From NCBI GenBank assembly GCA_903839035.1, contig CAIMAQ010000118.1, forward strand, positions 1 through 51,558: a DNA stretch of 51,558 nucleotides. Reading direction: 5' to 3'. Of the stretch, positions 1 through 24,606 are shown one piece after another; position 1 is the stretch's first letter, and each line of letters starts with the position of its first letter. The DNA comes from an uncultured Opitutia bacterium. GTDB taxonomy: Bacteria; Verrucomicrobiota; Verrucomicrobiia; Opitutales; Opitutaceae. Under the pieces are notes generated by a model that saw only the letters and a program-made list of their open reading frames with translations, was not told the origin of the DNA and did not search any database. The position numbers and the translations under genes are program-made.

Positions 1-318
1 AAGGATTACCCTCTGCTCTACCCGATCGGACCGGCCAAGGCGATGGAGCCCACCCTCACACTGGCACGGGTCACCGGGGATGCGTTCTACCGGAAAATGG
101 CCGACGAGATGGCCGCCTTCATCGGCAACTGGCAGATGGACGCGCCCGGGCAGCCCTGGCATGGCGGCATGGTCCACGCGCTCGGGCAGTTCTGCGGCAA
201 GCATTGGGGTCCCGCCCTCGCCGGCCAGGTGGACAGCGGCATGGCCACGTCCAACAGCCTCGCCGCGCTGGAAAGCTGGCTCGAGCACCGCGCCCAGGAA
301 AAACCCCGCGCCCACTAA
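1..318 (+). CDS. C-terminal end of an unidentified protein (5' truncated)
   Basis: The reading frame is open from the first base of the window and ends at a TAA at 316-318, so only about the last 105 residues are visible. The Met at base 43 is internal rather than a convincing start. The fragment is rich in amphipathic helix and contains aromatic and Gly-rich turns such as PWHGGMVHALGQF. That pattern recalls the last hairpins of an (alpha/alpha)6-barrel glycosidase-type protein, but I do not recognise the family. The stop is one base before the ATG of the lipoyl-domain gene, so the two are almost certainly co-transcribed as part of the catabolic locus that follows. Confidence 0.6.
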   Translation, partial: KDYPLLYPIGPAKAMEPTLTLARVTGDAFYRKMADEMAAFIGNWQMDAPGQPWHGGMVHALGQFCGKHWGPALAGQVDSGMATSNSLAALESWLEHRAQEKPRAH

Positions 319-319
319 C

Positions 320-733
320 ATGGAAATCAAAATGAAAATGCCCGACCTGGCCACGACGGACTCCGCGATCAAGGTGATCCGGTGGCTCGTCACGCCCGGC
401 CAGCCCATCCAGCGCGGCCAGGCCCTCCTGGAGGTCGAGACGGACAAGGCCACGATGGAAGTGGAGTGTATCGCCACCGGCATCTTCAAAGAACCCCGCG
501 CCCAGCCCGGCGACACCCTCCTCGCCGGTCAAATCCTCGCCGTGCTCGAGGTCGCAGGGCCCGCGCGTCCCGCGGAGGCCGCTCCGCCGGCCTCACCCTC
601 CGTAGCTTTAGCGAAGGAGGACCCGACAATCGAAAATCCCCCCCCTCCCATCGCCCCTAGCCCATCGCCTCGTGCCGCGGGTGGCATGTTCGCCAAGAAC
701 CGCGCCGCCGCGAATCGGCCCAACCAAAACTAA
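320..733 (+). CDS. Free-standing lipoyl-domain protein (E2-like, no acyltransferase domain)
   Basis: A 137-residue protein. Residues 3-80 form a biotinyl/lipoyl domain with the lipoylation motif ETDKATMEVE, where Lys43 is the expected attachment site. Known relatives are the N-terminal swinging arms of 2-oxoacid dehydrogenase E2 subunits. Here the domain is followed only by an Ala/Pro-rich tail. There is no peripheral-subunit-binding domain and no catalytic acyltransferase domain before the stop, and no other frame restores one before the next gene at 753. The start at 320 is chosen because a longer upstream frame would run through the preceding gene. Context with E1 alpha (7941) and E1 beta (9786) suggests that it carries the acyl or aldehyde group made by that E1. 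The C-terminal tail contains a REP-like hairpin at 597-620, which may have contributed to truncation of a former E2. Confidence 0.8.
   Translation: MEIKMKMPDLATTDSAIKVIRWLVTPGQPIQRGQALLEVETDKATMEVECIATGIFKEPRAQPGDTLLAGQILAVLEVAGPARPAEAAPPASPSVALAKEDPTIENPPPPIAPSPSPRAAGGMFAKNRAAANRPNQN
597..620. repeat. REP-like inverted repeat inside the lipoyl-protein linker
   Basis: CCTCCGTAGC at 597-606 pairs with GCGAAGGAGG at 611-620 (8 of 10 positions) around a TTTA loop. From memory, similar CTTCGCTAAAGCTACGG-type repeats occur at many sites in Verrucomicrobia and Bacteroidetes genomes. Here the repeat lies within coding sequence and encodes part of the linker (SVALAKEDP). Confidence 0.5.
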
Positions 734-752
734 ATTTCATCCGCTCTTTTCC

Positions 753-1961: not shown

Positions 1962-1966
1962 ACCTC

Positions 1967-4900
1967 ATGGCCGCCCCGTCCGCCACGCTCACCGCTCCCG
2001 CCGCCCGGGGTCCCGTCACCGAGACGGGGCCGTGGCGCGAGCCGGGCCAGGCGGTGGACGCCGCGTACCTCCGGGCCGGCAAGCTGCGGTACCGCGCCGA
2101 GGACGGGGAAATCATCGGGCACAACCGGCCGTATTTTAACAACCGCCCGCTCTATTGCCGGCTCAACACCGACGGCGCGGTGCTCACCGGCGACCGGCCG
2201 CTCGCCCGCCTGATCGCCAAGCCCTACCTCTTCGGCGCCCTCTCCCTGGCCATCGCGCGGCAGCGCCGGGCGATCTGGCTCCATGACGCCGCGGAAATCG
2301 AGTCCCGCTACCACTGCGGCCGGATGGCCTGGCGCTGCTCCGACCCCACCCTGCCCGGCCTCGAGGTTTTCCTCACCGTCGTACCGCTCACGGAAGTCGC
2401 CGGCTTTGCCGCCCAGCTCCACGTCTCAGGCGCGAAGCCCGGCGACCAGCTCATCTGGGCCTTCAGCGGCGCGCGCAGGGAAGAGGGCGATCCGCGGTTG
2501 AACTGGGATCCCGTGATGCGGGGCAACCCGGATATCTGCCGCTCCGGCGATCCGCGCCGGCCGTTGCTGTTTCAGGGCCTCGTACCCGGGTTTTGCGCTG
2601 GCAACGTCGCCACGATTGACGGTCCGGCGTTCCGCCTGGCCGCCACCGCGGACGCCACTTCGGTCGCCGTGGGCCGCGCGAGCCGGACGGACGGAATGCG
2701 CGTCGGCGATTCCCTGTGGCTGGCCAACCCGGTTCACCTCGCGAAGTCCGCCCCGAGTGCCGCGCCACTGATCGTCGGCACCGCCAGGCTCGCTGTCCGG
2801 CAGGATGAACTGTTCTTCGCGGTCGAGTCCTGCCCCGCGGACGCCCCGGCCGCCAGCTTGCGCAGCGCGAATCCGGCCCAGGCGTTTGCCGACGGAGTCG
2901 CCTATCTCGGCGAGGTCGAGCGCGTGCGGATCGCGAGCCCCAGTGTCCGGCTGAACGCCGCCGTCGCGGCGGTGTGTCACGCGGTGGACGCCAACTGCGA
3001 GCGCGCCCCCTACATTTTCCGCCACGGCTGCATGGCGTTCAGCTGCCGGTTTGTCGGCTGGCGGGTGATCTGCGGTGCCACCGCCCTCGGCTGGCACGAG
3101 CGCGTGCTCGGCAACGCCGGCTACACGCTCGGGCTGCAGAAAAAATCCGACCCCGCCCGCACCCGGCCATCGGCCAGCGTAGAACGGCTTCTGGTGCACG
3201 AGGGCCCGGACTCGCGGCTCTACGGCAAGGGTTCACTCGACCGGGATTTCCCGATGTACGACGTGCAGACGCAGTTCTTCGACCAGACCATCGCCGGCTG
3301 GCGCGCGTCGGCCGACCCGGAGATGGAACGGCTGCTCCGGCCGGCGCTCGAGCTGCACTTGGAATGGATGCAGGAGTGCTTCGATCCGGACGACGACGGC
3401 CTGTACGAGAGCTACATCAACACCCTCCCCACCGACTCCGTCTGGTACAACGGCGGCGGTAGCGCCGAGCAATCGGCCTACGCCTACACCGCGTATCGCG
3501 CCGCGGCCGACCTGGCCCGTCGCGCCGGTGACCTGGCCGCGGCCGAGCGCCATCAGGCGCAGATGGCAAAAATCCAGCGCGCCCTCCGCGAAAAGCTCTG
3601 GGTGCAGGAACGCGGGCATTTTGGCCTGTATCGTGAACAGGGTGGACACGGCCGCGTGCACGCCGACGCCTGGACGTACAGCGTGTTCCTGCCCATCGAT
3701 GCCGGCCTGACCTCGCCGCTCGAGGCGTTGCAATCGCTGTATTACACCGAGTGGGACCTCGAGCGCATCCGCCTCCCCTACGGTGGCGTGCTCTGCCAGC
3801 TTTCCAACTGGGTACCGTGGAAATGGTCGGTGCGCGACATGTTCGGCGGCGACCTTTTCGCCCTCGCCCTCGCCTATTTTCAAGCCGGCCTCGGCGACGC
3901 CGGCTACGAGCTCCTCGAGGGTGCCACCCTGGAGAGCGCCTATGCGAGCGTGGTGCCGGGCGGTTTCAGTCACATCGGCGCGGCGACGGATTTCGGCGAC
4001 AATGTCCACATGTTCGCGCGGACCGTGGTCGAGGGACTCTACGGTTACGCACCGGACTACCCGAACGGCTGCGTACGGATCCAGCCGGCGTTTCCCTCCG
4101 TCTGGCCCACCGCGTCGATCCAGACGCCGGACTTTGCCTTCAGCTACCGCCAGGGCAAGGACACGGACCTTTACGTGCTGGAGCTGACCAAACCCGCGGA
4201 GATCAGCTTCCGCCTGCCTGTGCGCGCCGAACGGATCCGGCGCGTGCTGGTCAACGGCCACGAGCTGACCGGTCGGACCGAGCCGGGCTTTGGCTGTACG
4301 CTGCTGACGCTCACGGTGCCCGCGACCGAGAGCGTCGACCTGACGATCGAACTTGCCGACCGCCTGACCCAGAGCCAGCCGATCCACCTCAACGGCCGGG
4401 TCGGCGACAACCTGGCCTTGAAGGTGCCAAAGGGACAGGTCGAAGAATGGCTCGACCTGCACCAGGTGCTCGAAGCCACCCAGCCGGAGGCAGCCGTCCT
4501 CCGCGGCCGGATCAGTGCCAAGCCCGGCCACCATCTCGTGCTCGCCCGGTGCCGCTGCGGCGAACTCCCGCGCTGGGAAATCTTCAAGCTGCACATCACG
4601 GATCCCGTGACGGGCATCGCCCGCATCACCCAAACCCCGCGCGCCCCCGCCCCGGGCGCCCTCTGGGACTGCCTCGACCTGGCCGGAAAGCACAACGGCG
4701 ACATCCGCACGATCTTCCAGCAGCGTTATCTTTCCCCCCGCCCGGCCACCTGCTCCGTCCGGCTCGGCGTGGACGGTTATTCCGCCTGGACGTTCCCCTA
4801 CTGGGGTCTGCCCCCGCCGAAGATCGAGCTCGGCCACATTGCCCAGCTCACCGGCGCCAAGAATCGGCTCGTCACCCCGCAGGGCGTGCCGTTCACGCGC

Positions 4901-5335
4901 TTCACCGAGGAACGGAACATCGCCTTTACGTCGCTCTGGGACAACTGGCCGACGTCCGTGGAATTCCCGGTCCACCGCGCAGGCAAGACCGCTTGGTTGC
5001 TCGTCTGTGGCAGCACCTTCCCGATGCAGACGCGCATCGCCAACGCCGAGTTTCGCTTCCGCTACGCCGACGGGCAGGTCGAGAAGCTCGAACTCATGCC
5101 GCCTGACAATTTCTGGATGCTCTGCCCATGGGGCGGCGAGGATTACAGCTACGAGCACGACGCCTTCGCCCTGCCCGCGGAACCGCCCCCGCAGGTCCAG
5201 CTCGGCGCCAACTGCCGCGCCATGGTGCTCTCCTGGAAACTCCGTCCCGACGTGATGCTGGAATCCGTCACCCTTGAAGCCCTGTCGCAGGATGTCGTCA
5301 TCGGCCTGATGGGCCTGAGCCTGGAAACCGCCTGA
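1967..5335 (+). CDS. Large DUF4450-like carbohydrate-active protein
   Basis: An 1122-residue protein. Its N-terminal region, with NRPLYCRLN around residue 60 followed by a GDRP motif, resembles the DUF4450 family that I know from polysaccharide-utilisation loci of Bacteroidetes and Verrucomicrobia; this assignment is from memory. The middle (about residues 400-750) looks like an (alpha/alpha)6 barrel, with an acidic stretch (FDPDDDGLYES) and a WYNGGG motif. The C-terminal third appears beta-rich. There is no evident signal peptide, so a cytoplasmic location is likely, which is unusual if the substrate is a polymer. It lies 5 bases after the preceding gene and 14 bases before the GH38-like gene. 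The precise activity is unknown. Confidence 0.65.
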   Translation: MAAPSATLTAPAARGPVTETGPWREPGQAVDAAYLRAGKLRYRAEDGEIIGHNRPYFNNRPLYCRLNTDGAVLTGDRPLARLIAKPYLFGALSLAIARQRRAIWLHDAAEIESRYHCGRMAWRCSDPTLPGLEVFLTVVPLTEVAGFAAQLHVSGAKPGDQLIWAFSGARREEGDPRLNWDPVMRGNPDICRSGDPRRPLLFQGLVPGFCAGNVATIDGPAFRLAATADATSVAVGRASRTDGMRVGDSLWLANPVHLAKSAPSAAPLIVGTARLAVRQDELFFAVESCPADAPAASLRSANPAQAFADGVAYLGEVERVRIASPSVRLNAAVAAVCHAVDANCERAPYIFRHGCMAFSCRFVGWRVICGATALGWHERVLGNAGYTLGLQKKSDPARTRPSASVERLLVHEGPDSRLYGKGSLDRDFPMYDVQTQFFDQTIAGWRASADPEMERLLRPALELHLEWMQECFDPDDDGLYESYINTLPTDSVWYNGGGSAEQSAYAYTAYRAAADLARRAGDLAAAERHQAQMAKIQRALREKLWVQERGHFGLYREQGGHGRVHADAWTYSVFLPIDAGLTSPLEALQSLYYTEWDLERIRLPYGGVLCQLSNWVPWKWSVRDMFGGDLFALALAYFQAGLGDAGYELLEGATLESAYASVVPGGFSHIGAATDFGDNVHMFARTVVEGLYGYAPDYPNGCVRIQPAFPSVWPTASIQTPDFAFSYRQGKDTDLYVLELTKPAEISFRLPVRAERIRRVLVNGHELTGRTEPGFGCTLLTLTVPATESVDLTIELADRLTQSQPIHLNGRVGDNLALKVPKGQVEEWLDLHQVLEATQPEAAVLRGRISAKPGHHLVLARCRCGELPRWEIFKLHITDPVTGIARITQTPRAPAPGALWDCLDLAGKHNGDIRTIFQQRYLSPRPATCSVRLGVDGYSAWTFPYWGLPPPKIELGHIAQLTGAKNRLVTPQGVPFTRFTEERNIAFTSLWDNWPTSVEFPVHRAGKTAWLLVCGSTFPMQTRIANAEFRFRYADGQVEKLELMPPDNFWMLCPWGGEDYSYEHDAFALPAEPPPQVQLGANCRAMVLSWKLRPDVMLESVTLEALSQDVVIGLMGLSLETA

Positions 5336-5349
5336 GCGCCCTGCCACCC

Positions 5350-7944
5350 ATGTCCCCCGGAAACAAGCCCCGCCTCTGCCTGACCCTGCTGAACCACTGG
5401 AGCTACACCGGCATCGGCTGGAACCTCGGGCTGGAGTCCTGCGCGCAGTCCATCACCGACAGCCTCGACATGGCGGACTATTCGCCGAGCGTGAAGACGG
5501 GGATCAACCTCGACGCGCTCACCTACGAGCTCGTCGCCGAGCACTATCCCCACCTCAACCGGCGGCTGCAGCGTTACCTCGCGGCGGGTCAGGTAGAAAT
5601 CATCGGCGGCACCTTCGGCCAGCCCATCGGCTCGATGGTATCCGGCGAATCCAACCTGCGGCAGCTCATCGTCGGCCAGCAGACCATCACCCGCGTCCTC
5701 GGCCGCCCTGTTGCCGTCTTCCTTGAGGAGGAGGAGATGAGCCACCCGCAGATTCCCCAGCTGCTCGCCCTCACGGGTTACCGGTATGCGAGCATGGCGC
5801 AGTGCGACACGTGGGGCCGGCACGGCGCGCCCTCCATGGAGGAGCCCGTTATCTGGTGGGAGGGCGCGGACGGCACCCGGATGCTCGCGGTGCCGGCCAG
5901 TCCCCTGGTGTTTCATCCGCCGATGGTCACCCACGACATCGACTGGCTCTGGACCGACGAAGGCCGCGCCACCGTGGTCCGCATGTCGGGCTCCCGGATT
6001 CCACTGGCGCTGAAATGGACCGAGTTCGGCTGGGAAAAACTCACCGGCAAATCCATCAACAAGTTCGACCCGGAGCTGTTCCGCGCGCTCTCTGCCCAGT
6101 TCGACGTCGAGTATCTCACGGTTGAGCAATACCTCGACCGCGAGTCGGCCCCCGGCCGCCCCGCCATCCCCGTGAAGCGTCCCGCCGTGGACGATTTCAC
6201 GAAGCTTCTGCCGTGGGGCATCGGCGGCGACCAACTGCGCCGCTTCGGCCGCGAGGTGGAGGCCACCCTGCTGGCCGCCGAGCGCTTCGAGGCGGTCGCG
6301 CACCTGCTGGATGCCGGCTTCGACGCCGCGGCGCCGCTGCACGAGGCGTGGCGGCAGTTCCTCGCCGCGCAAAGCCACGACGTTTCCCTCTGCGAATACA
6401 CCCGGCACCAAGGCGCCACGCCGCCCGCCGACCCGGTGCTCGACACGCATTTCCAAACCTGGGGCTCCTACGGCTACCGCTTCATGGACGAGGCCGTGGC
6501 CGCGGGCCGCAAGGTGCTGGGCGGGGCGTTGCGCGCCATCGCCCAGTCCGTCGGCACCGCGCCGGCTCACGGCCCCGGCAGCCAGGCGGCGGTGGTCTTC
6601 AATGCCTGCGGTTTCGCGCGCGATGCCCTCGTGACCACGGGCACTTTGCAACTGGAGGAACTCAAAACAGGCGCGCTGCACGTTTGCGATTCCACCGGCC
6701 AGCGGATTCCGTCCCAGCTGCTGAACAGCGAGCGCAGCTCCGGTGGCCAGCTGGTCTGCGCCGACGTGGCCTTCACCGCCCGCGCCCTGCCGGCGCTGGG
6801 CTACGACACCTATTTTCTCGTCCCGGCTGCCACCGACGCCCCGTCGCCCGCGACGGACCTGCGGGTCGACCGGGATGCGCTGGTGATCGAAAACGCCCGG
6901 GTGCGCGTTTGCCTCGATCCGGTCAGCGGTGCCATCCGCAGTCTCGTCGAACGCGCCAGCGGCAAGGACCTGCTCACCGGCAACACCCGGCCGTTCCCGA
7001 CCCTCACGGGCGAAGCCAACGGCTCCTCGCCCCTGGCACGTCCGCCCAACACTCCGGTCGCGCCCTACAATACGGCCCAGACCCAGGCGCACTTCACCTG
7101 GCTCGAGACCGGGCCGTTGCGGGCGCGGGTGCGGGCCACGCATCCCGACACCCGCGGACTGCGCTTTGAGATCACCGTCACACTCACGGCGGATTCGCCC
7201 GAGGTGGACGTGGCGGTGCGCGTTTTCCCCGACCTGCCGCCCAAAACCGGCGAGGCCAAGGTCAACGGCTGGCAATTCCCCCTGGAGATTCACGAGGGTT
7301 ACTGGCTGGAGTTGGTCCCGGGCTTCAAAGTTGCGACGGTCCTACGCGACTATCCCTTCGGCGCCGAGCCCAGCGGGAAGCAGGCCGTGACGGCGCTGTC
7401 GTGGCTGGACCTGATGGCGGCGGATGGCTCCGGGCTCCTCGTCGTGCACAGCGGCACCCAGTATTTCAAGCGCCGCGACGACGGCGGTTTCGCCAACCTG
7501 GTCGTGCGCGAATGGGAATCGCACTTCACCGGCGAGTTCGGCTGGCCCCGCACGTGCGCCTATCGCTACGTGCTACGGCCCCATGGCGCCGGGTTCACCA
7601 ACACCGACCGGAATCAGGCGGTCGCGGCGTTCGACCAGAAGCCACGCGTCATCGTGCTGGCCCCGCAGCCCGGCGCGCTGCCCCGGCGGCAAAGTTTCCT
7701 GACCGTGACGGGGACCACGCTTTCCGCGTTCCGCCGCCCGGCAGGCCAAGCCGGCTGCGAACTGCGGCTGGCCGAATGCGAGGGACAGGCCGGCACGGCC
7801 CGCGTGACCACCACCCTGCCCCTAACATCGTGCCATCCGACCGACGCGATGGGTCGGACCCGGGGCGCATCCAGCCTGCTCGCCAGCTCTGGGGACATCA
7901 CGCTTCGCCCCTGGGAAATCAGGCAATTCCAACTTCTAAAATGA
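5350..7944 (+). CDS. Divergent GH38-like protein with altered active site
   Basis: An 864-residue protein with the overall plan of glycoside hydrolase family 38: an N-terminal catalytic-type domain, a helical middle with SHDVSLCEY (His343-Asp344), and a beta-rich C-terminal part beginning around ENARVRVCLDPVSGAIRSL. In canonical GH38 enzymes the first zinc site is H-x-D. Here His16 is followed by Trp-Ser, so the Asp is Ser18. The region that normally carries the catalytic Asp in a D-x-F-G-H motif reads LEEEEMSHPQIPQ (residues 125-137). The canonical paralogue at 14426 keeps all these residues. This copy may therefore use another mechanism, or be non-hydrolytic. Its TGA overlaps the ATG of the E1 alpha gene by four bases, implying translational coupling. 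Confidence 0.75.
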   Translation: MSPGNKPRLCLTLLNHWSYTGIGWNLGLESCAQSITDSLDMADYSPSVKTGINLDALTYELVAEHYPHLNRRLQRYLAAGQVEIIGGTFGQPIGSMVSGESNLRQLIVGQQTITRVLGRPVAVFLEEEEMSHPQIPQLLALTGYRYASMAQCDTWGRHGAPSMEEPVIWWEGADGTRMLAVPASPLVFHPPMVTHDIDWLWTDEGRATVVRMSGSRIPLALKWTEFGWEKLTGKSINKFDPELFRALSAQFDVEYLTVEQYLDRESAPGRPAIPVKRPAVDDFTKLLPWGIGGDQLRRFGREVEATLLAAERFEAVAHLLDAGFDAAAPLHEAWRQFLAAQSHDVSLCEYTRHQGATPPADPVLDTHFQTWGSYGYRFMDEAVAAGRKVLGGALRAIAQSVGTAPAHGPGSQAAVVFNACGFARDALVTTGTLQLEELKTGALHVCDSTGQRIPSQLLNSERSSGGQLVCADVAFTARALPALGYDTYFLVPAATDAPSPATDLRVDRDALVIENARVRVCLDPVSGAIRSLVERASGKDLLTGNTRPFPTLTGEANGSSPLARPPNTPVAPYNTAQTQAHFTWLETGPLRARVRATHPDTRGLRFEITVTLTADSPEVDVAVRVFPDLPPKTGEAKVNGWQFPLEIHEGYWLELVPGFKVATVLRDYPFGAEPSGKQAVTALSWLDLMAADGSGLLVVHSGTQYFKRRDDGGFANLVVREWESHFTGEFGWPRTCAYRYVLRPHGAGFTNTDRNQAVAAFDQKPRVIVLAPQPGALPRRQSFLTVTGTTLSAFRRPAGQAGCELRLAECEGQAGTARVTTTLPLTSCHPTDAMGRTRGASSLLASSGDITLRPWEIRQFQLLK

Positions 7945-8942: not shown

Positions 8943-8951
8943 TTTACCGCC

Positions 8952-9773
8952 ATGAAAACCCCGGAAATCACCCCGTTGTCCGACGCCACCAAGCGTGCCG
9001 CCGCCGCGCAGTATGCGCGGGATGGATTTTATCTCGCACCCTCCGTCATCCCGTCCGAGCTGCTGGCCCGGGTGCGGAAGCGCATCGATGCGGTCTACGC
9101 CGGGGAATACGAAACTGGCATCCCGCCCTGCGGCAGTCCCAAGGGCTCGCAGGAACCCCCGCAGAAGCTGGTAAAAATTGACAACGCGCACCGCTCCGAC
9201 CGGACGATCTTCGAACTCGTGACCCATCCCGCCATCGGCGAGTGGGCCGCCGCGCTCACCGGCGCGAAAATGGTTCAGGTCTTTGCCTGCCAGATGCTGA
9301 TCAAGCCCCCCGGGCGCCAGGGCGGCGTCAATGTCGGCTGGCACCAGGACCAGGAATACTGGGACCACGCCCTGACCGGCGAGCTGTTCACCGCGTGGGT
9401 GGCCATCAGCGATGTCACCGCGGAGTCCGGGCCCATGCGCTTCGTGCCCGGCTCGCAGCACTGGGGTCTGCTCAAGGCCGGCGATTTCTTCAGCGACAAG
9501 CTCGACGAGATCAAGGCGCGCTTCCAGGGCAAGAGCGGCGGCGGCAAGTGGGAGGAAGTCGCCGCGGTGCTGCCCCCGGGCGGCGTCAGTTTCCACCACC
9601 GGCTCACCGTCCACGGCAGCGGCGAGAACCACGCCGCCAGCCCGCGCGTGAGCTTCGCCATCCACTTCCGCACCGAGAAATCCGGCCTGCGTGAGGGCAC
9701 GAAATGGCAGGACGCCGGTTATCTCAACGACTTCGCCGACCCCGTCGGCAGCCCCGTCAGCTATCGCGCTTAA
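8952..9773 (+). CDS. Phytanoyl-CoA dioxygenase (PhyH) family Fe(II)/2-oxoglutarate oxygenase
   Basis: A 273-residue double-stranded beta-helix oxygenase. The iron ligands expected for the family are visible as His131-x-Asp133 (WHQDQEYW) and a distal His221 (VHGSGEN), with Arg232 (SPRVSF) as the probable 2-oxoglutarate anchor. Members hydroxylate aliphatic or sugar-like carbons, and some cause demethylation or de-etherification through unstable hydroxylated intermediates. Bacterial substrates are mostly unknown. It sits between E1 alpha and E1 beta with short spacers (9 and 12 bases), so its product may be handled in the same pathway. It is only distantly similar to the other two PhyH proteins in this window and has an extra insertion (SDKLDEIKARFQGKSGGGK). 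Confidence 0.85.
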   Translation: MKTPEITPLSDATKRAAAAQYARDGFYLAPSVIPSELLARVRKRIDAVYAGEYETGIPPCGSPKGSQEPPQKLVKIDNAHRSDRTIFELVTHPAIGEWAAALTGAKMVQVFACQMLIKPPGRQGGVNVGWHQDQEYWDHALTGELFTAWVAISDVTAESGPMRFVPGSQHWGLLKAGDFFSDKLDEIKARFQGKSGGGKWEEVAAVLPPGGVSFHHRLTVHGSGENHAASPRVSFAIHFRTEKSGLREGTKWQDAGYLNDFADPVGSPVSYRA

Positions 9774-9785
9774 CTTTTAAAATCT

Positions 9786-10802
9786 ATGAAACGACAAGGC
9801 ATTGCAGAGGCACTCCGGGACGGCATCGCCGAGGAAATGACACGCGACTCCAGCGTGTTTTGCATCGGCGAGGACATCGGCGTGCCCGGTGGCTGGGGCG
9901 GGGCGTTCACCGTCACCCTCGGCCTGTCCGATAAATTCCCCGGCCGCATCATCGACACGCCCATCGCCGAACTCGGCTTCACCGGCATGGCCGTGGGCGC
10001 CGCGATGATGGGGATGCGGCCCATCGCCGACATGCAGTACGGCGACTTCCTCTTTCTGGCCAGCGACCAGCTGATCAACAACGCCGCCAAGATGCGGTAC
10101 ATGTCCGGCGGCACGATCAAGGTGCCCATGGTCATGCGCGCCCCCATCGGCGCCACCGGCCGCGGCTCGCAACATGCGCAGAGCATGGAGCGCTACTTCA
10201 CCGGCGTGCCCGGCCTCAAGGTTGTCGCCGTCTCCACCGCTTACGACGCCAAGGGCATCCTCAAGGCCGCCGTGCGCGACGACAACCCCGTCATGATCTT
10301 CGAGCACAAGCTGCTCTACGGTTCCAAGGGCGCCCGCGCCGAACCCGGCGCCGTGGATGCGACCAGCGACATTCCCGAGGAGGATTACGTCGTGCCGCTC
10401 GACCGCGCTGTGGTCCGCCGCGACGGCCAGCACGTGACCATCCTGGGTTGGCTCCTGATGGCGCACTTCGCCGCCCAGGCCGCGGAGCAACTCGCCAAGG
10501 AGGGCATCGAGGCCGAGGTCATTGATGTGCGCAGCCTGTCGCCGATCGACTACGACACCATCGGCGCCTCCATCCGGAAGACCGGCCGCGTCATCATTGT
10601 CGAGGAAGGCCCCAAGACCGGCGGTGTCAGCGCCGAGATCGCCGCCGGCATCATGGAGCACTGCGGCGAGAGCCTGCAGGCCCCCGTCGTGCGTGTCGCC
10701 TCGCCCGATGTTCCCGTGCCCTTCAGCCCCATCCTCGAGAACGCGTACCGCCCCGACGTCGCGCGCATCGTCGCCGCCGCGCGCAACCTGACCCAGTCCT
10801 GA
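9786..10802 (+). CDS. TPP-dependent dehydrogenase E1 component, beta subunit
   Basis: A 338-residue protein that matches E1 beta subunits of pyruvate/acetoin dehydrogenases along its whole length. It has the early IGEDIG motif, the DTPIAELGFTG segment with the thiamine-activating Glu62, the AAMMGMRPIADMQY stretch, and a C-terminal transketolase-type domain with an EEGPKTGG segment. With the alpha subunit it should form an alpha2beta2 heterotetramer. No E2 acyltransferase or E3 dihydrolipoyl dehydrogenase is encoded in the window. The only candidate lipoyl carrier is the short protein at 320-733. A long hairpin repeat begins immediately after the stop codon and separates it from the second PhyH gene. 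Confidence 0.9.
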   Translation: MKRQGIAEALRDGIAEEMTRDSSVFCIGEDIGVPGGWGGAFTVTLGLSDKFPGRIIDTPIAELGFTGMAVGAAMMGMRPIADMQYGDFLFLASDQLINNAAKMRYMSGGTIKVPMVMRAPIGATGRGSQHAQSMERYFTGVPGLKVVAVSTAYDAKGILKAAVRDDNPVMIFEHKLLYGSKGARAEPGAVDATSDIPEEDYVVPLDRAVVRRDGQHVTILGWLLMAHFAAQAAEQLAKEGIEAEVIDVRSLSPIDYDTIGASIRKTGRVIIVEEGPKTGGVSAEIAAGIMEHCGESLQAPVVRVASPDVPVPFSPILENAYRPDVARIVAAARNLTQS

Positions 10803-10896
10803 TTTTACAGGAGGCAACGGAGAGAACAGAGAAGAGTTAACCGCCCTCTTTACAGGAGCCCGCCTCTCTCCATTCCCTCCGTTCCCTCCTGTAAAA
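10803..10896. repeat. Inverted-repeat hairpin element, family A copy 1
   Basis: The outer arms TTTTACAGGAGG (10803-10814) and CCTCCTGTAAAA (10885-10896) are exact complements. Pairing continues inward with CAACGGAGAG against the region containing CCCTCCGTT. An internal TTTACAGGAG echo lies near 10849. The element fills the space between E1 beta and the second PhyH gene. A second copy lies at 11687-11771. Confidence 0.8.
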
Positions 10897-10910
10897 AACC
10901 ACCCCACCCC

Positions 10911-11675
10911 ATGAGCCTGATTGATGATTACAACCGCGACGGCTACGTCGTGGTCCGCAACGTCCTGGACGCCGACCTGATTAAGGAGGCCAGCAACCAC
11001 GTCGAGTGGTTGATGAAGAAGAACCCCGGCCGCCGCCCCGAGCAATTGTGGCAGGACCTGATCCCAAACGACCCGTTCTGGGTGCGACTCGTCAGTGACC
11101 GCCGGCTGCTGGACGTCGCGCAGGAATTCATCGGCCCCGACATCGCCCTGTTCGCCTCCCACTACCTCTGCAAACCCGCCGGCAACGGCCTGCCCGTGCT
11201 CTGGCACCAGGACGGCAGCTACTGGCCGCTCGACCCGATGAACGTCACGACCATCTGGCTCGCCGTGGACGATTCCACGCCCGAGAACGGCTGCATGCGC
11301 GTCATCCCCGGCACGCAGCACCTCAAGCTGCAGCAGCTCAAGGAGCGGAAGGACGTCACCAACGTCCTCAGTTCCGAGATCGACAGCTCGTTTGTGGACG
11401 AGTCCAAGGCCGTGGACATCATCCTCAAGGCCGGCGACCTCTCCGTGCACCACCCGAACGTCATCCACGGCTCCAACGCCAACACCTCGCCCAAGCGCCG
11501 CTGCGGCCTGACCATCCGTTACATCCCCACTACGACCCGGATCACGGTTCCGTGGGGCTGCGATTTTCTGCTGCGCGGCGCAGCCGTCCCCGGCATCAAT
11601 GACTACAAGCCGTTCCCGAAATACGTCGGGGGCGACAGCCAGATGGCCTTTCGCGACTGCGCGCAGTGGCAGTAA
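10911..11675 (+). CDS. PhyH-family Fe(II)/2-oxoglutarate dioxygenase (second copy)
   Basis: A 254-residue oxygenase with iron ligands His99-x-Asp101 (WHQDGSYW) and distal His186 (VIHGSNANTS), followed by an Arg-rich RRCGLTIRYIP strand that should hold the 2-oxoglutarate. It is closer in motif spacing to the PhyH at 32122 than to the one at 8952. The start at 10911 follows a run of C-rich sequence with no Shine-Dalgarno-like sequence. The gene is bracketed by two near-identical hairpin repeats (10803-10896 and 11687-11771), as though it were a modular insertion in the operon. The substrate is unknown; sugar or sugar-acid modification is inferred from neighbours. Confidence 0.87.
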   Translation: MSLIDDYNRDGYVVVRNVLDADLIKEASNHVEWLMKKNPGRRPEQLWQDLIPNDPFWVRLVSDRRLLDVAQEFIGPDIALFASHYLCKPAGNGLPVLWHQDGSYWPLDPMNVTTIWLAVDDSTPENGCMRVIPGTQHLKLQQLKERKDVTNVLSSEIDSSFVDESKAVDIILKAGDLSVHHPNVIHGSNANTSPKRRCGLTIRYIPTTTRITVPWGCDFLLRGAAVPGINDYKPFPKYVGGDSQMAFRDCAQWQ

Positions 11676-11686
11676 CGACACCTAAC

Positions 11687-11771
11687 TTTTACAGGAGGTA
11701 ACGGAGAGCACAGAGAACAGACCAAACGCACGCATGAATCCTCTCCGTTCCCTCCGTTATCTCCTGTAAAA
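11687..11771. repeat. Inverted-repeat hairpin element, family A copy 2
   Basis: TTTTACAGGAGG at 11687-11698 followed by TAACGGAGAG is mirrored by CCCTCCGTTATCTCCTGTAAAA ending near 11771; a T/A difference interrupts the outer GGAGG pairing. The arms are close copies of the element at 10803-10896, while the loop sequences differ. It fills the gap between the second PhyH gene and the isomerase gene. Confidence 0.8.
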
Positions 11772-11791
11772 ACAAATCCCCCAGCAATCCC

Positions 11792-12346
11792 ATGATCACG
11801 AAAGCAGAACTGAAACGCCGCCAGCAGGAAGCCTACGGCTTTTTCCAGAAAGCGAGGCTCGTCATCACCTCCGCCGAGCAGGAAAAGATCGAGGTCGCGG
11901 ACTTCGGCCTGAGCGAATTCGAGCAGACCGGCCTCGGCGTACTCGTCTACGTCAACACCCTGCGCTGCTGCGCCAAGGAGCTCGCCATGTGGCCGCGCCA
12001 GACCTGCCCGGAACACCGCCATCCCAACGTCAACGGCCAGCCCGGCAAGGAGGAGACGTTCCGCTGCCGCTGGGGCAAGGTGTTCCTCTACGTCGCCGGC
12101 GCAAAGGCGACCGCCCCGCAATGCCGCCCGCCCGCAGGCCGCGAGTCCACCTATACCGTCTGGCACGAGGTCGTGCTGAATCCCGGCGACCAGTACACCA
12201 TCACGCCGAACGTCCCGCACTGGTTCCAGGCCGGCGACGAGGGCGCCGTCGTGTCGGAGTTCTCCACCCACAGCACCGACGAGAACGACATCTTTACCGA
12301 CCAGGCCATCGGCCGTGAGACCAAGGTGAGCGAGGGCCAGTCATGA
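11792..12346 (+). CDS. D-lyxose ketol-isomerase-like cupin protein
   Basis: A 184-residue single-cupin protein resembling the D-lyxose/D-mannose isomerase family. These are metal-dependent enzymes interconverting D-lyxose with D-xylulose and D-mannose with D-fructose. Probable metal ligands are the two His of PEHRHPNV, the Glu of GKEETFRCRWG and the His of PNVPHWFQ, in the order and spacing expected for the family. Its ATGA stop/start overlap with the aldolase-dehydrogenase gene implies coupling, and suggests that the ketose formed is the aldolase substrate or its precursor. With alpha-mannosidases in the same locus, a mannose-configured sugar is a reasonable substrate. The natural substrate remains inferred. 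Confidence 0.82.
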   Translation: MITKAELKRRQQEAYGFFQKARLVITSAEQEKIEVADFGLSEFEQTGLGVLVYVNTLRCCAKELAMWPRQTCPEHRHPNVNGQPGKEETFRCRWGKVFLYVAGAKATAPQCRPPAGRESTYTVWHEVVLNPGDQYTITPNVPHWFQAGDEGAVVSEFSTHSTDENDIFTDQAIGRETKVSEGQS

Positions 12347-14316
12347 ACAGCCGCTGGAACGACGCCGAGGCGGCGAACTATCCCGGCGACCTCGGGCAGC
12401 GCGTGTACAGCTCGCGCCTGCTCGGACGCGATTCCGCCCTCGTCCTCCACGGTGGCGGCAACACGTCCGTCAAATCGCGCGAGAAAAACATCTTCGGCGA
12501 GGAGGAGGACATCCTCTACGTTAAGGGCAGCGGCTGGGACCTCGAGACGATCGAGGCCGCGGGGTTTTCGCCCTGCCGGCTGAACCACCTGCTCAAGCTG
12601 GCCCGGCTCCCCGAGTTGTCCGACCTGCAGATGGCCAACGAACTCAAGGGCTGCCTGACGAACTCCGCCGCACCGATGCCGTCGGTCGAGGCGATCCTCC
12701 ACGCCATCCTCCCCGGCAAGTTCGTGGACCACACCCACGCTGACGCCCTCATCTCGATCACCAACACCGCCACCGGCCTGAAACGCGTTCAGGAAGTCTT
12801 CGGCGACCGCGTCGTGTTCATTCCCTACGTGATGCCCGGCTTCAAGCTGGCCCGCCTTTGCGCCGAGCTATTTCCGCAGAAGGCGACCGGGAAGACCATC
12901 GGCCTTGTGCTGATGAACCACGGGCTGTTCACCTTCGGCGACACCGCCAAGGTCGCCTACGAGCGCATGATCGAGCTCGTCACCCTTGCCGAGTCGTATC
13001 TCGCCAAGCACCAAGCCTGGGAGTTGAAGTCGCCCGCTCCGGTTTCCGCGCCCCGCCCTGCCCGCCTTGAAATCGCCGCCCTGCGGAAGGAAGTTTCCGC
13101 CGCCATGGGCGGCCCCGCCATTCTCGCTGTGCAGGGCACGGTCGCCGGTCATGAGTTCGCCCGTCGCCCAGACGTGGCCACCATCTCCCAGCAGGGCCCG
13201 GCCACCCCCGATCACGTCATTCGGACAAAGCGAATTCCGATGTTGGGCCGCGACGTCGCGGCGTTTCGCGCCGCCTACCGGATCTATTTTGATGCCTGTG
13301 CCGCCAAAGCCGGCCGGAAACTCGTCATGCTCGATCCCGCGCCCCGCGTGCTGCTCGATCCCGAACTGGGTCTCTGCACCATGGGCCGCACCGCCAAGGA
13401 AGCCACCATCGCAGCCGATATCTACCATCACACCATCGACATCATCTCGCGCTCCACCGCGCTCGGCGGCTGGCAGGCACTGCCCGCGGAGGATATCTTC
13501 GATGTCGAATACTGGGACCTCGAGCAGGCCAAGCTCCGCGCCGCCGGCAAGGCCCCCGCGTTCGCCGGCGAGATCGCCCTCGTCACCGGCGCGGCCTCGG
13601 GCATCGGCAAGGCCTGCGTGGACTCCCTCTTGAAACGCGGCGCCGCCGTCGTCGGCCTCGACGTGAATCCCGCCATCACGAAACTCTACTCCCGCCCCGA
13701 CTTCCACGGCATCGTCTGCGATCTCACCCAGGAAGCCAGCCTCGCCACCGCGATCGAGGAGGCGGTCCGCAAGTTCGGCGGACTCGACATGTTGGTGCTG
13801 AACGCCGGGATTTTCCCGCCCGGCTCGCCGATCGCGGACATGAAGTCGGACCTCTGGCACAAGGTGATGTCCGTCAACCTCGACGCCAATTTCCTGCTCC
13901 TCCGCGAGTGCCATCCCCTGCTCAAGCTCGCGCCCAACGGCGGGCGCGTCGTTGTCATCGGCTCAAAGAATGTCCCTGCCCCCGGCCCCGGTGCGTCCGC
14001 CTACTCGGCGTCCAAGGCCGCCGTCAACCAGCTCGTGCGCGTCGCCGCCCTCGAGTGGGGCAAGGACCGCATCCGCCTCAACTCGCTGCACCCGAACATG
14101 GTCTTCGACACCGCGCTCTGGACCCCGGAGATCCTCGCCTCCCGCGCGAAGCACTACGGGTTGAGTATCGAGGAGTATAAGACGAACAACGTACTGAAGA
14201 CCGAAGTCTCCAGCCGCGACGTCGCCGAACTCGCCGCTGAGATGTGCGGCCCGCTCTTCGCCAAGACCACCGCCGCCCAGGTCCCCGTCGACGGCGGCAA
14301 CGACCGCGTCATCTAA
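12343..14316 (+). CDS. Bifunctional class II aldolase / short-chain dehydrogenase
   Basis: A 657-residue fusion. Residues 1-400 are a class II (zinc) aldolase of the rhamnulose-phosphate/fuculose-phosphate group. It has HGGGNTSVK at 36-44 for phosphate binding, zinc ligands His130 and His132 (DHTHAD), and a further MNHGLF motif near 188. Residues 408-657 are a Rossmann-fold short-chain dehydrogenase with TGAASGIG near 416 and the Tyr554-x-x-x-Lys558 catalytic pair (YSASK). Known proteins of this design cleave a ketose phosphate to dihydroxyacetone phosphate plus an aldehyde and oxidise the aldehyde, as in some rhamnose pathways. No sugar kinase is present nearby. The start overlaps the isomerase stop. 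Confidence 0.87.
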   Translation: MNSRWNDAEAANYPGDLGQRVYSSRLLGRDSALVLHGGGNTSVKSREKNIFGEEEDILYVKGSGWDLETIEAAGFSPCRLNHLLKLARLPELSDLQMANELKGCLTNSAAPMPSVEAILHAILPGKFVDHTHADALISITNTATGLKRVQEVFGDRVVFIPYVMPGFKLARLCAELFPQKATGKTIGLVLMNHGLFTFGDTAKVAYERMIELVTLAESYLAKHQAWELKSPAPVSAPRPARLEIAALRKEVSAAMGGPAILAVQGTVAGHEFARRPDVATISQQGPATPDHVIRTKRIPMLGRDVAAFRAAYRIYFDACAAKAGRKLVMLDPAPRVLLDPELGLCTMGRTAKEATIAADIYHHTIDIISRSTALGGWQALPAEDIFDVEYWDLEQAKLRAAGKAPAFAGEIALVTGAASGIGKACVDSLLKRGAAVVGLDVNPAITKLYSRPDFHGIVCDLTQEASLATAIEEAVRKFGGLDMLVLNAGIFPPGSPIADMKSDLWHKVMSVNLDANFLLLRECHPLLKLAPNGGRVVVIGSKNVPAPGPGASAYSASKAAVNQLVRVAALEWGKDRIRLNSLHPNMVFDTALWTPEILASRAKHYGLSIEEYKTNNVLKTEVSSRDVAELAAEMCGPLFAKTTAAQVPVDGGNDRVI

Positions 14317-14330
14317 AACGCAGATATTCT

Positions 14331-14408
14331 CACGCAGAGCCGCCAAGACGCAAAGGTCAGGATTACCCAACCCACTCTCCGAACTTCGCGCCTTAGCGTC
14401 TCTGCGTG
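14331..14408. repeat. Inverted-repeat hairpin element, family B
   Basis: The arm at 14331-14355 (CACGCAGAGCCGCCAAGACG then CAAAG) is the imperfect complement of 14384-14408 (CTTCGCGCCTTAGCGTCTCT then GCGTG). Repeats of this ACGCAGAG..AAGACGCAAAG kind are, from memory, common between genes in several phyla. It occupies most of the 109-base gap before the GH38 gene. Confidence 0.75.
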
Positions 14409-14425
14409 CAAATCGCCCTACCCCC

Positions 14426-17158
14426 ATGGCCTCCCCGAAAAAACGCCCCGTCCATTACACGCTCAGCACCCATTGGGACCGCGAGTGGCGCGAGCCCTTC
14501 CAGGGCATCCGCTACGCCCTCGTGACCCTCATGGACCGCGTCATCGCGGGACTCGAGGACGGGCGATTGCAGGGCCCGTTTCAGACCGACGGCCAGTCCA
14601 TCCTGATTGACGACTACCTCGAGATCCGGCCCGACCGCCGCGCCCAGGTCGAGCGCCTCGCGCGCGAGGGCAAACTCGTGGTCGGCCCGTGGTATTCGAT
14701 GCCCGACGAGTTCACCGTCTCGGGCGAAGCCCTCATCCGCAACCTGCTCGTCGGCCGCCAGGACGCGCGGGCCATCGGCGGCGAACCCTCCCGGGCGGGT
14801 TATGTGCCCGACATGTTTGGCCACACCAGCCAGCTCCCGCAGATCTTCGCCGGATTCGGCATCCCGGTCGGTTACGTCTGGCGCGGCATCAACCTGCAGC
14901 AGCGGAATTTCATCTGGCGCGGCGCCGACGGCACCGAAATGCCCTGCCACAAGTTCGGCAATGTCGGCTACGGCACGTTCGCCCACGCGGTGAACCGCGG
15001 TCACGAGTACAACGGACCCGTCGAGGACCGTCCCGAGGAACACGCCCGGCGCGCCAAGGAATACCTGGACAAGGAGGCCGCCGCCACCGCCGTGGACGCG
15101 ATCCTCCTCCACGATTCCTGCGACCACCAGGAATGGAACCCGCAGCGCTATGCCCTCCTTTTCGCGCAGCTGGCCCGGAGCCCGAAGTACAAATTGGTGC
15201 ACACCAGCCTCGATGCCTACCTGGTCGAGTTGCTGGCCCAGCGCGACAAGATCACCACGGTGCTCGAGGGCGAACTCCGCGTCGCCGGCCGGGAACACCC
15301 CACGTCGCAGGTCGAGGGCTACTGCAACCAGTGGGTCATCCCCGGCGTGCTCTCCAGCCGCGTGCGCCTCAAGCAGGCCAACCACCGCTGCCAGACACTG
15401 CTCTGCGCCTGGGCGGAACCGTTCAGCGCCTTTGCCCACACCGCACTCGGCGCTGACTTCGCGCCCGGCTTTCTCGAGCACGCGTGGAAGCTTCTGATGC
15501 AGAACCACGCGCATGACTCCATTGACGGCTGCAGCCCGGACCAGGTGCACCAGGACATGGCGTACCGCTTCGACCAGGTCCGGATGATCGCCGAGAAACT
15601 CACCGTCGACTCCACCAGTCGGATCGCGGCCTGTGTGCGCGGCAAGGTCGCGGACAACCAACTGCGCGTCACCCTCTTCAACTCCCTCCCCCGGGACTTC
15701 GCCGGCGTCACCGAGGTCACCCTCGAGATCCCGGCCTCCTGGCCGGCCTTCAACGAATTCTTCGGCTTCGAGCCCAAGACCGGCTTCATCATCCACGATG
15801 CCGATGGCCGCGAGGTGCCCTACCAGCGCCTCGGCCAGACCCTCAACCGCCTTCGCCAGCGCATCCGCCCCACCAAGTTTGCCGAAGGCGTCATGAGCCA
15901 CCACATCCCGGTCGCGCTTCAGGTCGCCATCCCGGCGCAGGGCTACACCACGCTCACCGCCAGCGCCGTCGCCGCCGGCCGGCCGACGCGTTACCCCGAG
16001 GTACCCGCCCTCGCCACGAGCGAACGCTCCATGGCCAACGAGCACCTCGACGTCGCCATCGAGGACAACGGTACGCTCACCCTCACCGACCGGCACACCG
16101 GCCGCGTCTATTCGCGCCTTCTCACCTTCGAGGACCGGGCCGACATCGGTGACGGCTGGTACCACGGCGTCGCCGTCAACGACCAGGTCTTCGCCTCCAC
16201 CGCCTGCCGGGCCGATGTGGCCCTCGTGCACAACGGCCCCCTGCTGACCACTTTCCGTGTGCGCACCACGATGAATGTTCCCCGGGAATTCGTCTCGGGC
16301 GACACGATGGCCCGCTCGAGCCAGTTCGTGCCCATGGTCCTCGACAGCCTCGTCAGCCTCCGGCCCGGTCAGGAGTTCGTCGAGGTGCAGACCATCGTGG
16401 ACAACCCGGCCGACGACCATCGCGTCCGCGTGCTGTTCCCCAGCGGCGCCAAGGCGGAGACCTACCTCACCGACACCGCCTTTGACGTCGTGGAGCGCCC
16501 GATTGCCCTCCCGCAGGACAACCACGAGTACCGCGAGCTCAACGTCGAGACCCAGCCCCAGCAAAGCTGGACCGCAGTCCACGACGCCAAGTCCGGCCTC
16601 GCCGTCGTCGCCGACGGCCTGCTCGAGACCGCGGTCCGCGACACCGCCGAGCGGCCGATTGCTCTGACGCTCTTCCGTGGCACCCGCCGCACCGTCTTCA
16701 CCAACGGCGAGCCCGACGGCCAGATGCGCGGCCTACTGACATTCCGCTACCTCGTGATGCCCCTCGCGGGGAAGCCCAACCGGGCGCAGCTCTGCGAATT
16801 GGGCCAGCGCCTCTCGGCCGGCCTGCGCGCCGTCCAACTGCGCCGGGAAGACGTGGATATTTATCGGACCACCCCGGCACTGCCGCCGACCGCCGGTTTC
16901 CTCCGCCTGGAAGGCCCCGCCGTCGTGACCAGCACGCGCCAAGTGGGTGAGTCGCTCGAAATGCGGATGTTCAACCCCGACACCAAGCCCATCAGCGCCA
17001 CAATCCATCTCGGCACCAAAACGGGAAAAGCCCAACCGGCCACCACCGCCCAGCGCGTGGATTTCGAAGGCAACCCGCTCGGTCAGCTCGCCGTCGCCAA
17101 CGGCCAGATCAAGGTCACCCTCAAGCCGAAACAGATTGTGACGGTGCGGTTGGGGTAG
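14426..17158 (+). CDS. GH38 alpha-mannosidase
   Basis: A 910-residue protein with all the landmarks of glycoside hydrolase family 38: zinc ligands in STHWDREW (His16, Asp18), the nucleophile Asp129 in PDMFGHTSQ, and His363-Asp364 in AHDSIDGCSPDQVH. A helical mid domain and a long beta-sandwich C-terminal part follow. The family hydrolyses alpha-linked mannose with retention. Length is normal for bacterial members. No signal peptide is present, so it should act in the cytoplasm on imported alpha-mannosides or mannosylated small molecules. It closes the co-directional locus and is followed by a REP-type palindrome. Compared with the GH38-like protein at 5350 it is the catalytically intact copy. 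Confidence 0.9.
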   Translation: MASPKKRPVHYTLSTHWDREWREPFQGIRYALVTLMDRVIAGLEDGRLQGPFQTDGQSILIDDYLEIRPDRRAQVERLAREGKLVVGPWYSMPDEFTVSGEALIRNLLVGRQDARAIGGEPSRAGYVPDMFGHTSQLPQIFAGFGIPVGYVWRGINLQQRNFIWRGADGTEMPCHKFGNVGYGTFAHAVNRGHEYNGPVEDRPEEHARRAKEYLDKEAAATAVDAILLHDSCDHQEWNPQRYALLFAQLARSPKYKLVHTSLDAYLVELLAQRDKITTVLEGELRVAGREHPTSQVEGYCNQWVIPGVLSSRVRLKQANHRCQTLLCAWAEPFSAFAHTALGADFAPGFLEHAWKLLMQNHAHDSIDGCSPDQVHQDMAYRFDQVRMIAEKLTVDSTSRIAACVRGKVADNQLRVTLFNSLPRDFAGVTEVTLEIPASWPAFNEFFGFEPKTGFIIHDADGREVPYQRLGQTLNRLRQRIRPTKFAEGVMSHHIPVALQVAIPAQGYTTLTASAVAAGRPTRYPEVPALATSERSMANEHLDVAIEDNGTLTLTDRHTGRVYSRLLTFEDRADIGDGWYHGVAVNDQVFASTACRADVALVHNGPLLTTFRVRTTMNVPREFVSGDTMARSSQFVPMVLDSLVSLRPGQEFVEVQTIVDNPADDHRVRVLFPSGAKAETYLTDTAFDVVERPIALPQDNHEYRELNVETQPQQSWTAVHDAKSGLAVVADGLLETAVRDTAERPIALTLFRGTRRTVFTNGEPDGQMRGLLTFRYLVMPLAGKPNRAQLCELGQRLSAGLRAVQLRREDVDIYRTTPALPPTAGFLRLEGPAVVTSTRQVGESLEMRMFNPDTKPISATIHLGTKTGKAQPATTAQRVDFEGNPLGQLAVANGQIKVTLKPKQIVTVRLG

Positions 17159-24501: not shown

Positions 24502-24505
24502 TTTG

Positions 24506-24606
24506 TAACCGCGAATGGACGCGAATAGCCGCGAATTCAGGATCAGAAAGTACGATCACCATTCCTGCAGATTGGATTCGCGTTAAATCGCGTCCATTCG
24601 CGGTTA
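24506..24606. repeat. Inverted-repeat hairpin element between GH172 and GH43-like genes
   Basis: The arm 24506-24538 (beginning TAACCGCGAATGGACGCGAA) is the near complement of 24575-24606 (ending CGCGTCCATTCGCGGTTA). It fills the whole gap between the two genes of the operon. Repeats with the core ATTCGCGTCCATTCGCGGTT are, from memory, seen in several unrelated genomes. Confidence 0.8.

Follow-up and report, generated by a model that had tools for sequence, protein, structure and literature searches.

We analysed a 51,558-nucleotide stretch of DNA (the window; contig CAIMAQ010000118.1, here C118) from an uncultured Opitutia bacterium, assembly GCA_903839035.1, and in it a candidate sugar-catabolic operon that combines glycosidases and oxygenases with an isomerase, an aldolase and a thiamine pyrophosphate (TPP)-dependent dehydrogenase E1. 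The genome (G000) comprises 3.39 Mb in 126 contigs, and its closest named relatives are metagenome-assembled genomes of Verrucomicrobia and Opitutae. Twelve genes occupy the plus strand of positions 1-17158. Open reading frames (ORFs), a codon-based gene call and Pfam confirm these twelve same-strand ORFs and the families named for them in the initial annotation. Eight of the eleven gene junctions overlap or are shorter than 20 bases, the remaining three being 108, 116 and 109 bases long. The 3' limit given earlier, 17158, is correct, and beyond it lie minus-strand ABC/FtsX genes and class II tRNA synthetase genes. The 5' limit had to be revised: position 1 is the end of the contig, so the operon does not start there and runs on upstream, on contig C103.

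The genes, all on the plus strand, are arranged as follows. The contig start truncates a protein of about 688 residues (P680), leaving its 3' end at 1-318 and the remainder on C103. Next come a lipoyl carrier protein (320-733; PF00364, 1e-14), which has the motif ETDKA and lacks an E2 catalytic domain, and g2 (753-1961), a predicted (alpha/alpha)6-barrel glycosidase-like protein that matches no Pfam family and was assigned from an AlphaFold2 model and fold matches. A DUF4450 protein with an MGH1/GH116-like region follows (1967-5335; PF14614 47.7 against a cut-off of 27, PF22422 27.2 against 27), and then GH38a (5350-7944; PF01074 46.1 bits against 25), a GH38-like protein without the HWD and PDxFG motifs. 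The E1 alpha (7941-8942; PF00676 273.6 bits) and E1 beta (9786-10802; PF02779 and PF02780) genes flank PhyH1 (8952-9773; PF05721 95.3 bits), a 2-oxoglutarate/Fe oxygenase whose alignment shows a retained HxD...H motif. Trees place both E1 chains in one distinct subfamily, marked by HQ in the alpha chain and by QHA in place of HS in the beta chain. A second 2-oxoglutarate/Fe oxygenase, PhyH2 (10911-11675; PF05721 120.9 bits), was identified also from its alignment and PDB relatives. It precedes a cupin isomerase of the D-lyxose/D-mannose type, Lyx_isomer (11792-12346; phmmer matches to 7nzo, E 6e-66, and 2y0o, E 1e-62), and a bifunctional class II aldolase/short-chain dehydrogenase (aldolase-SDR, 12343-14316; NF006196 1081 bits against 831). 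The last gene, GH38b (14426-17158; PF01074 90.6, PF07748 59.0 and PF09261 40.0 bits), is of the canonical GH38 alpha-mannosidase type. A promoter scan gave no hit, and terminator-like sites were fewer than in its shuffles.

The end of C103 carries the G000 copies of a DeoR regulator, a class II fructose-bisphosphate aldolase (FBA)-type aldolase, a PfkB kinase and most of P680. It was placed next to the start of C118 because the same genes are contiguous in the relatives G058 and G388. DeoR on C103 is preceded by another PhyH gene. In window-type relatives with sequence read on the upstream side, the operon opens with DeoR, FBA and PfkB (without PfkB in G386). The PfkB slot is followed by a 688-residue protein and a short lipoyl protein in G058, G320 and G388, and by a full E2, PhyH3 and an MGH1-like glycosidase in G290 and G386. 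Against a profile of the G320 protein, the end of P680 in the window scores 229 bits. Sequence searches of Pfam, NCBIfam and the PDB gave no match for P680. Its AlphaFold model has a predicted beta-sandwich and helical barrel, matches mainly generic (alpha/alpha)6 barrels (GH76, epimerases, others) and, with a mean predicted local distance difference test score (pLDDT) of 46, is too weak to name a family. All 14 cluster FBAs read contain GYFE[SA]W[ND] near the N-terminus; the motif was not found in three other FBAs inspected, one of them lacking its N-terminus.

The clustering of these genes, the condition on which the initial annotation staked its reading, is conserved in relatives, as seen from two samples. 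The aldolase-SDR survey covered the best 80 of 412 matched loci, one genome per species, and eight of these 80 carry both E1 alpha (at least 79%) and E1 beta (at least 85%). A short contig, L007, has the order PhyH2, aldolase-SDR, GH38b. The window cupin has matches in 10 of 384 genomes of the class, in seven of which the identity reaches 60% or above; E1 beta is found at E <= 1e-120 in 10 of 387 genomes of the phylum (G000 counted in both). The second sample consists of 19 loci with the E1 subfamily from Verrucomicrobiota and Planctomycetota, set against 12 control loci with paralogous E1s from the same or related genomes; locus lengths are unequal across both sets, and several contigs are short. 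FBA is present at 14/19 loci (control 0/12), a D-lyxose isomerase at 12/19 (nine of the cupin type and three of the PF07385 type; 0/12), a class II aldolase at 11/19 (0/12), DeoR at 11/19 (1/12), PfkB at 9/19 (1/12) and PhyH, by profiles, at 9/19, all of them window-type (0/12). GH38b above 1000 bits occurs at 6/19 loci against none of the controls, or at seven if the second G388 stretch (L006) is added; G388 shows no GH38b in the 19-locus count because that count drew on just one of the two G388 stretches. The large GH38 is, like PhyH, a feature of the window-type group. The lipoyl domain (15/19 against 9/12) and the E2 catalytic domain (7/19 against 6/12) are found in both sets. Cupin scores of 36-40 bits in G385a and G533 are due to the PF07385 isomerase itself and were excluded from the cupin count, and G624b has an additional isomerase fragment at the contig edge. 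Nine of the 19 loci form one window-type group, in which the DNA of L003 and G320 is 92-94% identical to the window. With this group counted once, 11 lineages remain by our own grouping, of which nine have FBA and six the isomerase. Given the recurrence in relatives and the control loci, the arrangement exceeds chance.

The E1 alpha/beta pair constitutes a separate subfamily. Trees of 37 rows unite the 17 cluster E1s, with values of 98/92 for E1 beta (a starred branch) and 93/85 for E1 alpha (not starred). In both trees they are separate from the G000 pair on C29, from three acetoin operons and from rhizobial E1s, and the three acetoin-operon references form their own clade. In the E1 beta tree, the E1 of an Arthrobacter plasmid groups with the cluster E1s (99/94). 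QHA in E1 beta and HQ in E1 alpha are found in 17/17 cluster rows and in 0/19 rows from unrelated contexts; all 19 other rows have HS at the position of QHA, and the Arthrobacter protein has QHA and HQ. The signature adjoins a histidine that presumably has an active-site role. The NCBIfam equivalog models for pyruvate dehydrogenase (PDH) score E1 alpha below their cut-offs (351.2 against 393.85 for PDH alpha, the best model, and 259.9 against 411.35). E1 beta is above the cut-off of a PDH-type subfamily (NF006667, 337.5 against 321) and below that of NF008854 (345.5 against 454). Further E1 beta relatives occur in G000 on C29, C21, C13, C42 and C46. Two identities of the cluster E1 were considered and rejected: acetoin dehydrogenase, because the acetoin-operon E1s fall into a separate clade in both trees, and classic PDH, because E1 alpha is below the equivalog cut-offs and the operon has no E2 catalytic domain.

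Indeed, no match to the E2 catalytic domain PF00198 was found on C118 or C103; elsewhere in G000 there are three, on C29, C38 and C42. Among the 15 lipoyl-bearing loci the E2 catalytic domain is present in seven and absent in eight. This count leaves out the four loci without a lipoyl domain (L003, G387, G236, G624b): the available sequence of L003, G387 and G236 stops within g2 or DUF4450, and the gap between FBA and E1 on G624b, a contig of 4.1 kb, contains no lipoyl domain. The carriers without E2 in G000, G058 and G388 have a linker with GGMFAKNRAA, and a similar linker is seen in G320. Those of G533 and G589 are about 80-100 residues long and that of G624a is 160; in G619 the lipoyl domain lies within the same ORF as E1 alpha. 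Where an E2 is present, the aspartate of the motif DHxxxDG is replaced by N or S in six of seven cases (G290, G386, G385a, G384, G027, G385b). The G600 E2 retains it, as do all five other E2s read. Certain plastid-type E2s likewise have no aspartate in DHxxxDG, and therefore we do not take the replacement as proof of E2 inactivity.

The window cupin is related over its full length to the solved D-lyxose isomerases 7nzo and 2y0o (phmmer). In L011, G533 and G619 its slot is taken by an isomerase of the PF07385 type; no DNA match to the L011 isomerase was found in E. coli genomes. The B. subtilis-like and E. coli-like D-lyxose isomerases are separate groups, according to the available part of the paper on the isomerase TsLI. 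The occurrence of two isomerase groups in one slot supports the view that the reaction belongs to the pathway. Since DeoR, PfkB, FBA and the cupin are similar to Iol enzymes, myo-inositol catabolism was considered; it was rejected on the score of the kinase with the IolC model TIGR04382 (113.6 against 300).

The aldolase-SDR joins a class II aldolase (PF00596) and a short-chain dehydrogenase (PF00106/PF13561) in a single chain and is below the cut-off of TIGR02632 (RhaD_aldol-ADH; 420 against 567.75). A second aldolase-SDR of G000, on C3, is 32% identical to it. MtnA or MtnP shares the locus with an aldolase-SDR in 23 of the best 80 loci, where one MtnA and one MtnP were checked; thus relatives of the enzyme are associated with another ketose-1-phosphate. 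In an 81-row quick tree a starred branch separates the operon copies from all 23 Mtn-linked copies. The smallest fork with the ten operon copies also includes L010, which has no operon. The members of the Mtn-linked branch (L013, L036, others) all belong to Pseudomonadota, as expected for a methylthioribulose-1-phosphate aldolase.

GH38b has PDB sequence matches to 3lvt/5kbp (E 2e-86) and 2wyh (E 2e-75), and its HWD and PDxFG motifs, which we take to be catalytic in GH38, are intact. The initial annotation listed two GH38-type proteins. Both are above the PF01074 cut-off, but GH38a has HWS and EEEE at the places of HWD and PDxFG, as in all four GH38a sequences aligned. A weak GH38b match in G589 (59 bits) is a separate GH38 with its own PF01074 score of 168. 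The g2 protein is 82-98% identical across five relatives, with no PDB sequence match. Its AlphaFold2 model (pLDDT 56) is too weak to name a family; Foldseek and VIA match it to glycoside hydrolase barrels. Against this weak model the methylmannose polysaccharide hydrolase 7qsj gives Z 20.5 with a root-mean-square deviation of 3.9 over 294 aligned residues and 18% identity, the second among 50 listed barrel-type rows with Z 17.7-22.7, and the family names here denote fold matches only, without speaking against families outside the list. Hydrolases of the 7qsj type presumably carry the GH188 label. That the complete glycosidases have no signal peptides agrees with a by-eye reading of their N-termini. 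In both PhyH1 and PhyH2 the alignments show HxD...H to be kept, and the PDB relatives of PhyH2 include, at a distance, the antibiotic oxygenases EvdO2 and SnoK. Outside the window-type group, a PhyH-like ORF with HxD was seen by eye in G619 (L122:19012-19500), 8 kb past E1 beta and truncated by the end of the stretch. The gap at 14320-14420, before GH38b, contains an imperfect inverted repeat of the type ACGCAGAG...CTCTGCGT, spotted by eye.

Several known systems resemble parts of the operon. In the L-rhamnose pathway a fused class II aldolase-SDR, RhaEW, acts after an isomerase and a kinase and yields dihydroxyacetone phosphate (DHAP) and an oxidised C3 compound; in vitro it converts L-rhamnulose-1-phosphate to DHAP and L-lactate (PMC3870299, in the part available). 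Unlike that pathway, the operon has the D-lyxose/D-mannose cupin, PfkB, a second, FBA-type aldolase and the E1-lipoyl pair. A Citrobacter freundii plasmid (L158) carries a PF07385-type D-lyxose isomerase, a class II ketose-bisphosphate aldolase and a carbohydrate kinase as a unit, and hence these three can form one; however, it also has an ABC transporter, and no E1, lipoyl protein, PhyH or glycosidase is annotated in the 14.7 kb seen. The PDH and acetoin dehydrogenase complexes share with the operon an E1 alpha/beta heteromer and a lipoyl domain, whereas the operon has a separate E1 subfamily, no E2 catalytic domain (in G000) and a sugar-operon context. An Arthrobacter plasmid cluster (L134/L155) contains FBA, E1, a free lipoyl protein and a sugar kinase, and its E1 alpha is the closest among plasmid records. 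It differs in its fused E1 alpha/beta, FGGY kinases, SorC-type regulator and ABC transporter, and in that the plasmid also encodes lpd and, as a separate protein, the E2 catalytic part. The breakdown of phosphorylated autoinducer-2 (AI-2) involves LsrF, orthologues of which adjoin E1 in 3/19 loci, but the window has no LsrF; LsrK and LsrG were not searched for. The three loci are L011, L120 and L126, with scores above 500 bits in L011 and L120 (cut-off 297), and a ribulose-phosphate-epimerase-like gene accompanies the orthologue in L011 and L126.

On the rhizobial plasmids L131, L139 and L140, genes for E1 alpha/beta, E2 and lpd are accompanied by those for a sugar ABC transporter, an NAD(P)H-dependent oxidoreductase of about 441 residues and, if the region extended far enough, a sugar or PfkB kinase. 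We suspect that this oxidoreductase is DXR-like and acts in methylerythritol breakdown, although NCBIfam gave no match for the L131 protein. In the open-access library searched we found nothing joining a dehydrogenase E1, a lyxose isomerase and an aldolase, no paper with at least four of the terms lipoyl domain, dehydrogenase E1, sugar kinase, fructose-bisphosphate aldolase and operon, and nothing linking D-rhamnose catabolism to D-lyxose isomerase. The main texts of PMC5615132 and PMC8857213, in the parts available, mention neither GH38 nor a dioxygenase, and that of PMC8857213 neither lyxose nor pyruvate dehydrogenase. The operon appears to be a new combination of separately known enzyme families.

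Set beside the directly observed gene content, conservation, domain architecture, E1 subfamily status and missing E2 domain, the best reading, to which we give about even weight, is a DeoR-regulated cytoplasmic operon of the isomerase-kinase-aldolase type with glycosidases, for which we infer every reaction, the sugar and the order. Imported glycosides would be cut in the cytoplasm by P680, g2, the DUF4450 protein and GH38b, and GH38a may be altered. The two PhyH oxygenases would oxidise a substituent or a carbon of the glycone or aglycone. The cupin isomerase may then convert the freed D-lyxo or D-manno aldose (D-mannose, D-lyxose or a 5- or 6-deoxy relative) to a ketose for phosphorylation by PfkB, with C1 as the probable position, which we likewise infer. 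FBA, the aldolase-SDR or both would cleave the product to DHAP and a C2 or C3 aldehyde, which the dehydrogenase part of the aldolase-SDR may oxidise. E1 alpha/beta would load a C2 or C3 acyl unit, from a 2-oxoacid, ketol or aldehyde of the pathway, onto the small lipoyl protein. A general E2/E3 would be needed in G000 to take over the thioester, since the search of the operon gave no E2 catalytic domain. For the same reason the acyl transfer suggested in the initial annotation is doubtful in G000. Its logic of isomerisation followed by aldol cleavage is supported, with the kinase and second aldolase, which it could not see, lying upstream. Its mannose-like configuration would fit both the D-lyxose/D-mannose isomerase and the intact GH38b.

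A number of observations weigh against this reading. Among the operon genes no transporter was recognised. The solved relative TsLI acts with high specificity on D-lyxose, with mannose activity below 2%, and such an enzyme is ill-suited to follow a mannosidase (PMC8378251, in the part available). PfkB and FBA are far under every NCBIfam cut-off listed for them, and the second aldolase would be redundant in a pathway that deals with a single sugar. The counts over the 19 loci are not independent, because nine belong to one window-type group. Within relatives the set is incomplete: PhyH2, the cupin, the aldolase-SDR and GH38b are lacking in G236 over 9.6 kb past E1 beta, PhyH2, the cupin and GH38b in G387, and PfkB was not seen in G386. 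The loci of G027, G589, G624a and G385b show no isomerase; in G027 a cupin and PfkB are located on a different contig.

The alternatives to the isomerase-kinase-aldolase reading differ mainly in the role of E1. A serious competitor, somewhat short of even weight, is that E1 and the lipoyl protein are a spare PDH front end: DHAP and lactate would pass through pyruvate to acetyl-lipoyl, and housekeeping E2/E3 would finish, so that the chemistry would be of a known kind throughout. E1 beta does exceed the PDH-type subfamily cut-off, PDH alpha is the best model for E1 alpha, lactate is a product of RhaEW (PMC3870299, as far as available), and in G039 a PDH-like E1, E2 and lpd stand with DeoR, PfkB and a cupin. 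However, G000 has another PDH-type E1/E2 pair on C29, E1 alpha reaches only 351.2 of the required 393.85, and the subfamily is apart from C29 and other E1s and has its own signature. The G039 locus (L095) has an E1 of another clade. More tentatively, the subfamily could dispense with an E2 core and use a free lipoyl carrier, the thioester passing to a general E2 or another acceptor, with the soluble E1-lipoyl pair oxidising an aldolase-derived aldehyde, ketol or hydroxy-2-oxoacid. If true, sugar breakdown would here have a lipoyl-dependent branch that lacks a multienzyme core of its own. It is rather unlikely that E1 cleaves an acyloin (ketol) as acetoin dehydrogenase does, acting on a phosphorylated deoxyketose to give a C2 acyl-lipoyl and a sugar-phosphate aldehyde. 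LsrF takes its name from a thiolase whose substrate is a phosphorylated hydroxydiketone. The LsrF orthologues next to E1, and the rhizobial and Clostridioides E1 relatives near sugar transporters, kinases or glycosidases, are consistent with ketol cleavage, but the acetoin-operon E1s form a clade apart and a sugar aldolase is already in the operon.

The capped, e.g. O-methylated, mannose of the initial annotation, to be uncapped oxidatively by PhyH before isomerisation, also seems improbable to us. The intact-looking HxD...H oxygenases, the sole basis for cap removal, and the canonical GH38b are in its favour, as may be the modelled fold match of g2 to 7qsj, which makes O-methyl mannose a possible but unproven substrate. 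On the other hand, that model is weak, many other barrels score in the same Z range, no PDB sequence match was found, and PhyH profile matches are restricted to the window-type group, leaving the uncapping step unproven; nor was a formaldehyde-handling gene recognised among the operon genes. The aldolase-SDR could serve the salvage of methylthioadenosine or 5-deoxyadenosine and be in the cluster by chance, as its Mtn-linked relatives would suggest. This has little probability: the starred branch divides the operon copies from all of these, and the aldolase-SDR is in the cluster at nine E1-carrying loci (window included) and in L007. Methylthioadenosine salvage in particular was rejected, the Mtn-linked relatives being on another branch. 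Slightly less probable still is that the genes make or trim a glycan of the cell itself or a natural product. E1-type enzymes add a two-carbon branch to sugars in avilamycin-type pathways, and PhyH2 is distantly related to EvdO2 and SnoK; but glycosidases, DeoR, isomerase, kinase and aldolases are a catabolic set, and the operon genes include no recognised glycosyltransferase or nucleotide-sugar enzyme.

If the isomerase-kinase-aldolase reading is right, it describes a route of sugar breakdown in two phyla rich in uncultured glycan degraders and provides context for a distinct E1 subfamily, about half of whose loci have no E2 catalytic domain. It also offers a likely context for D-lyxose/D-mannose isomerases, for which the available part of the TsLI paper gives no natural role, and raises the testable question of what an E1 paired with a free lipoyl domain does.

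Some neighbouring genes were also observed. UroD-like proteins are encoded at 4/19 E1 loci, all outside the window-type group (L103, L121, L125, L011). Downstream of the operon, the window contains a second carbohydrate cluster on the minus strand (23551-27416) with GH32/43-like, DUF2961 and GH127-like proteins, and a further PhyH protein outside the operon (32122-32955, plus strand).

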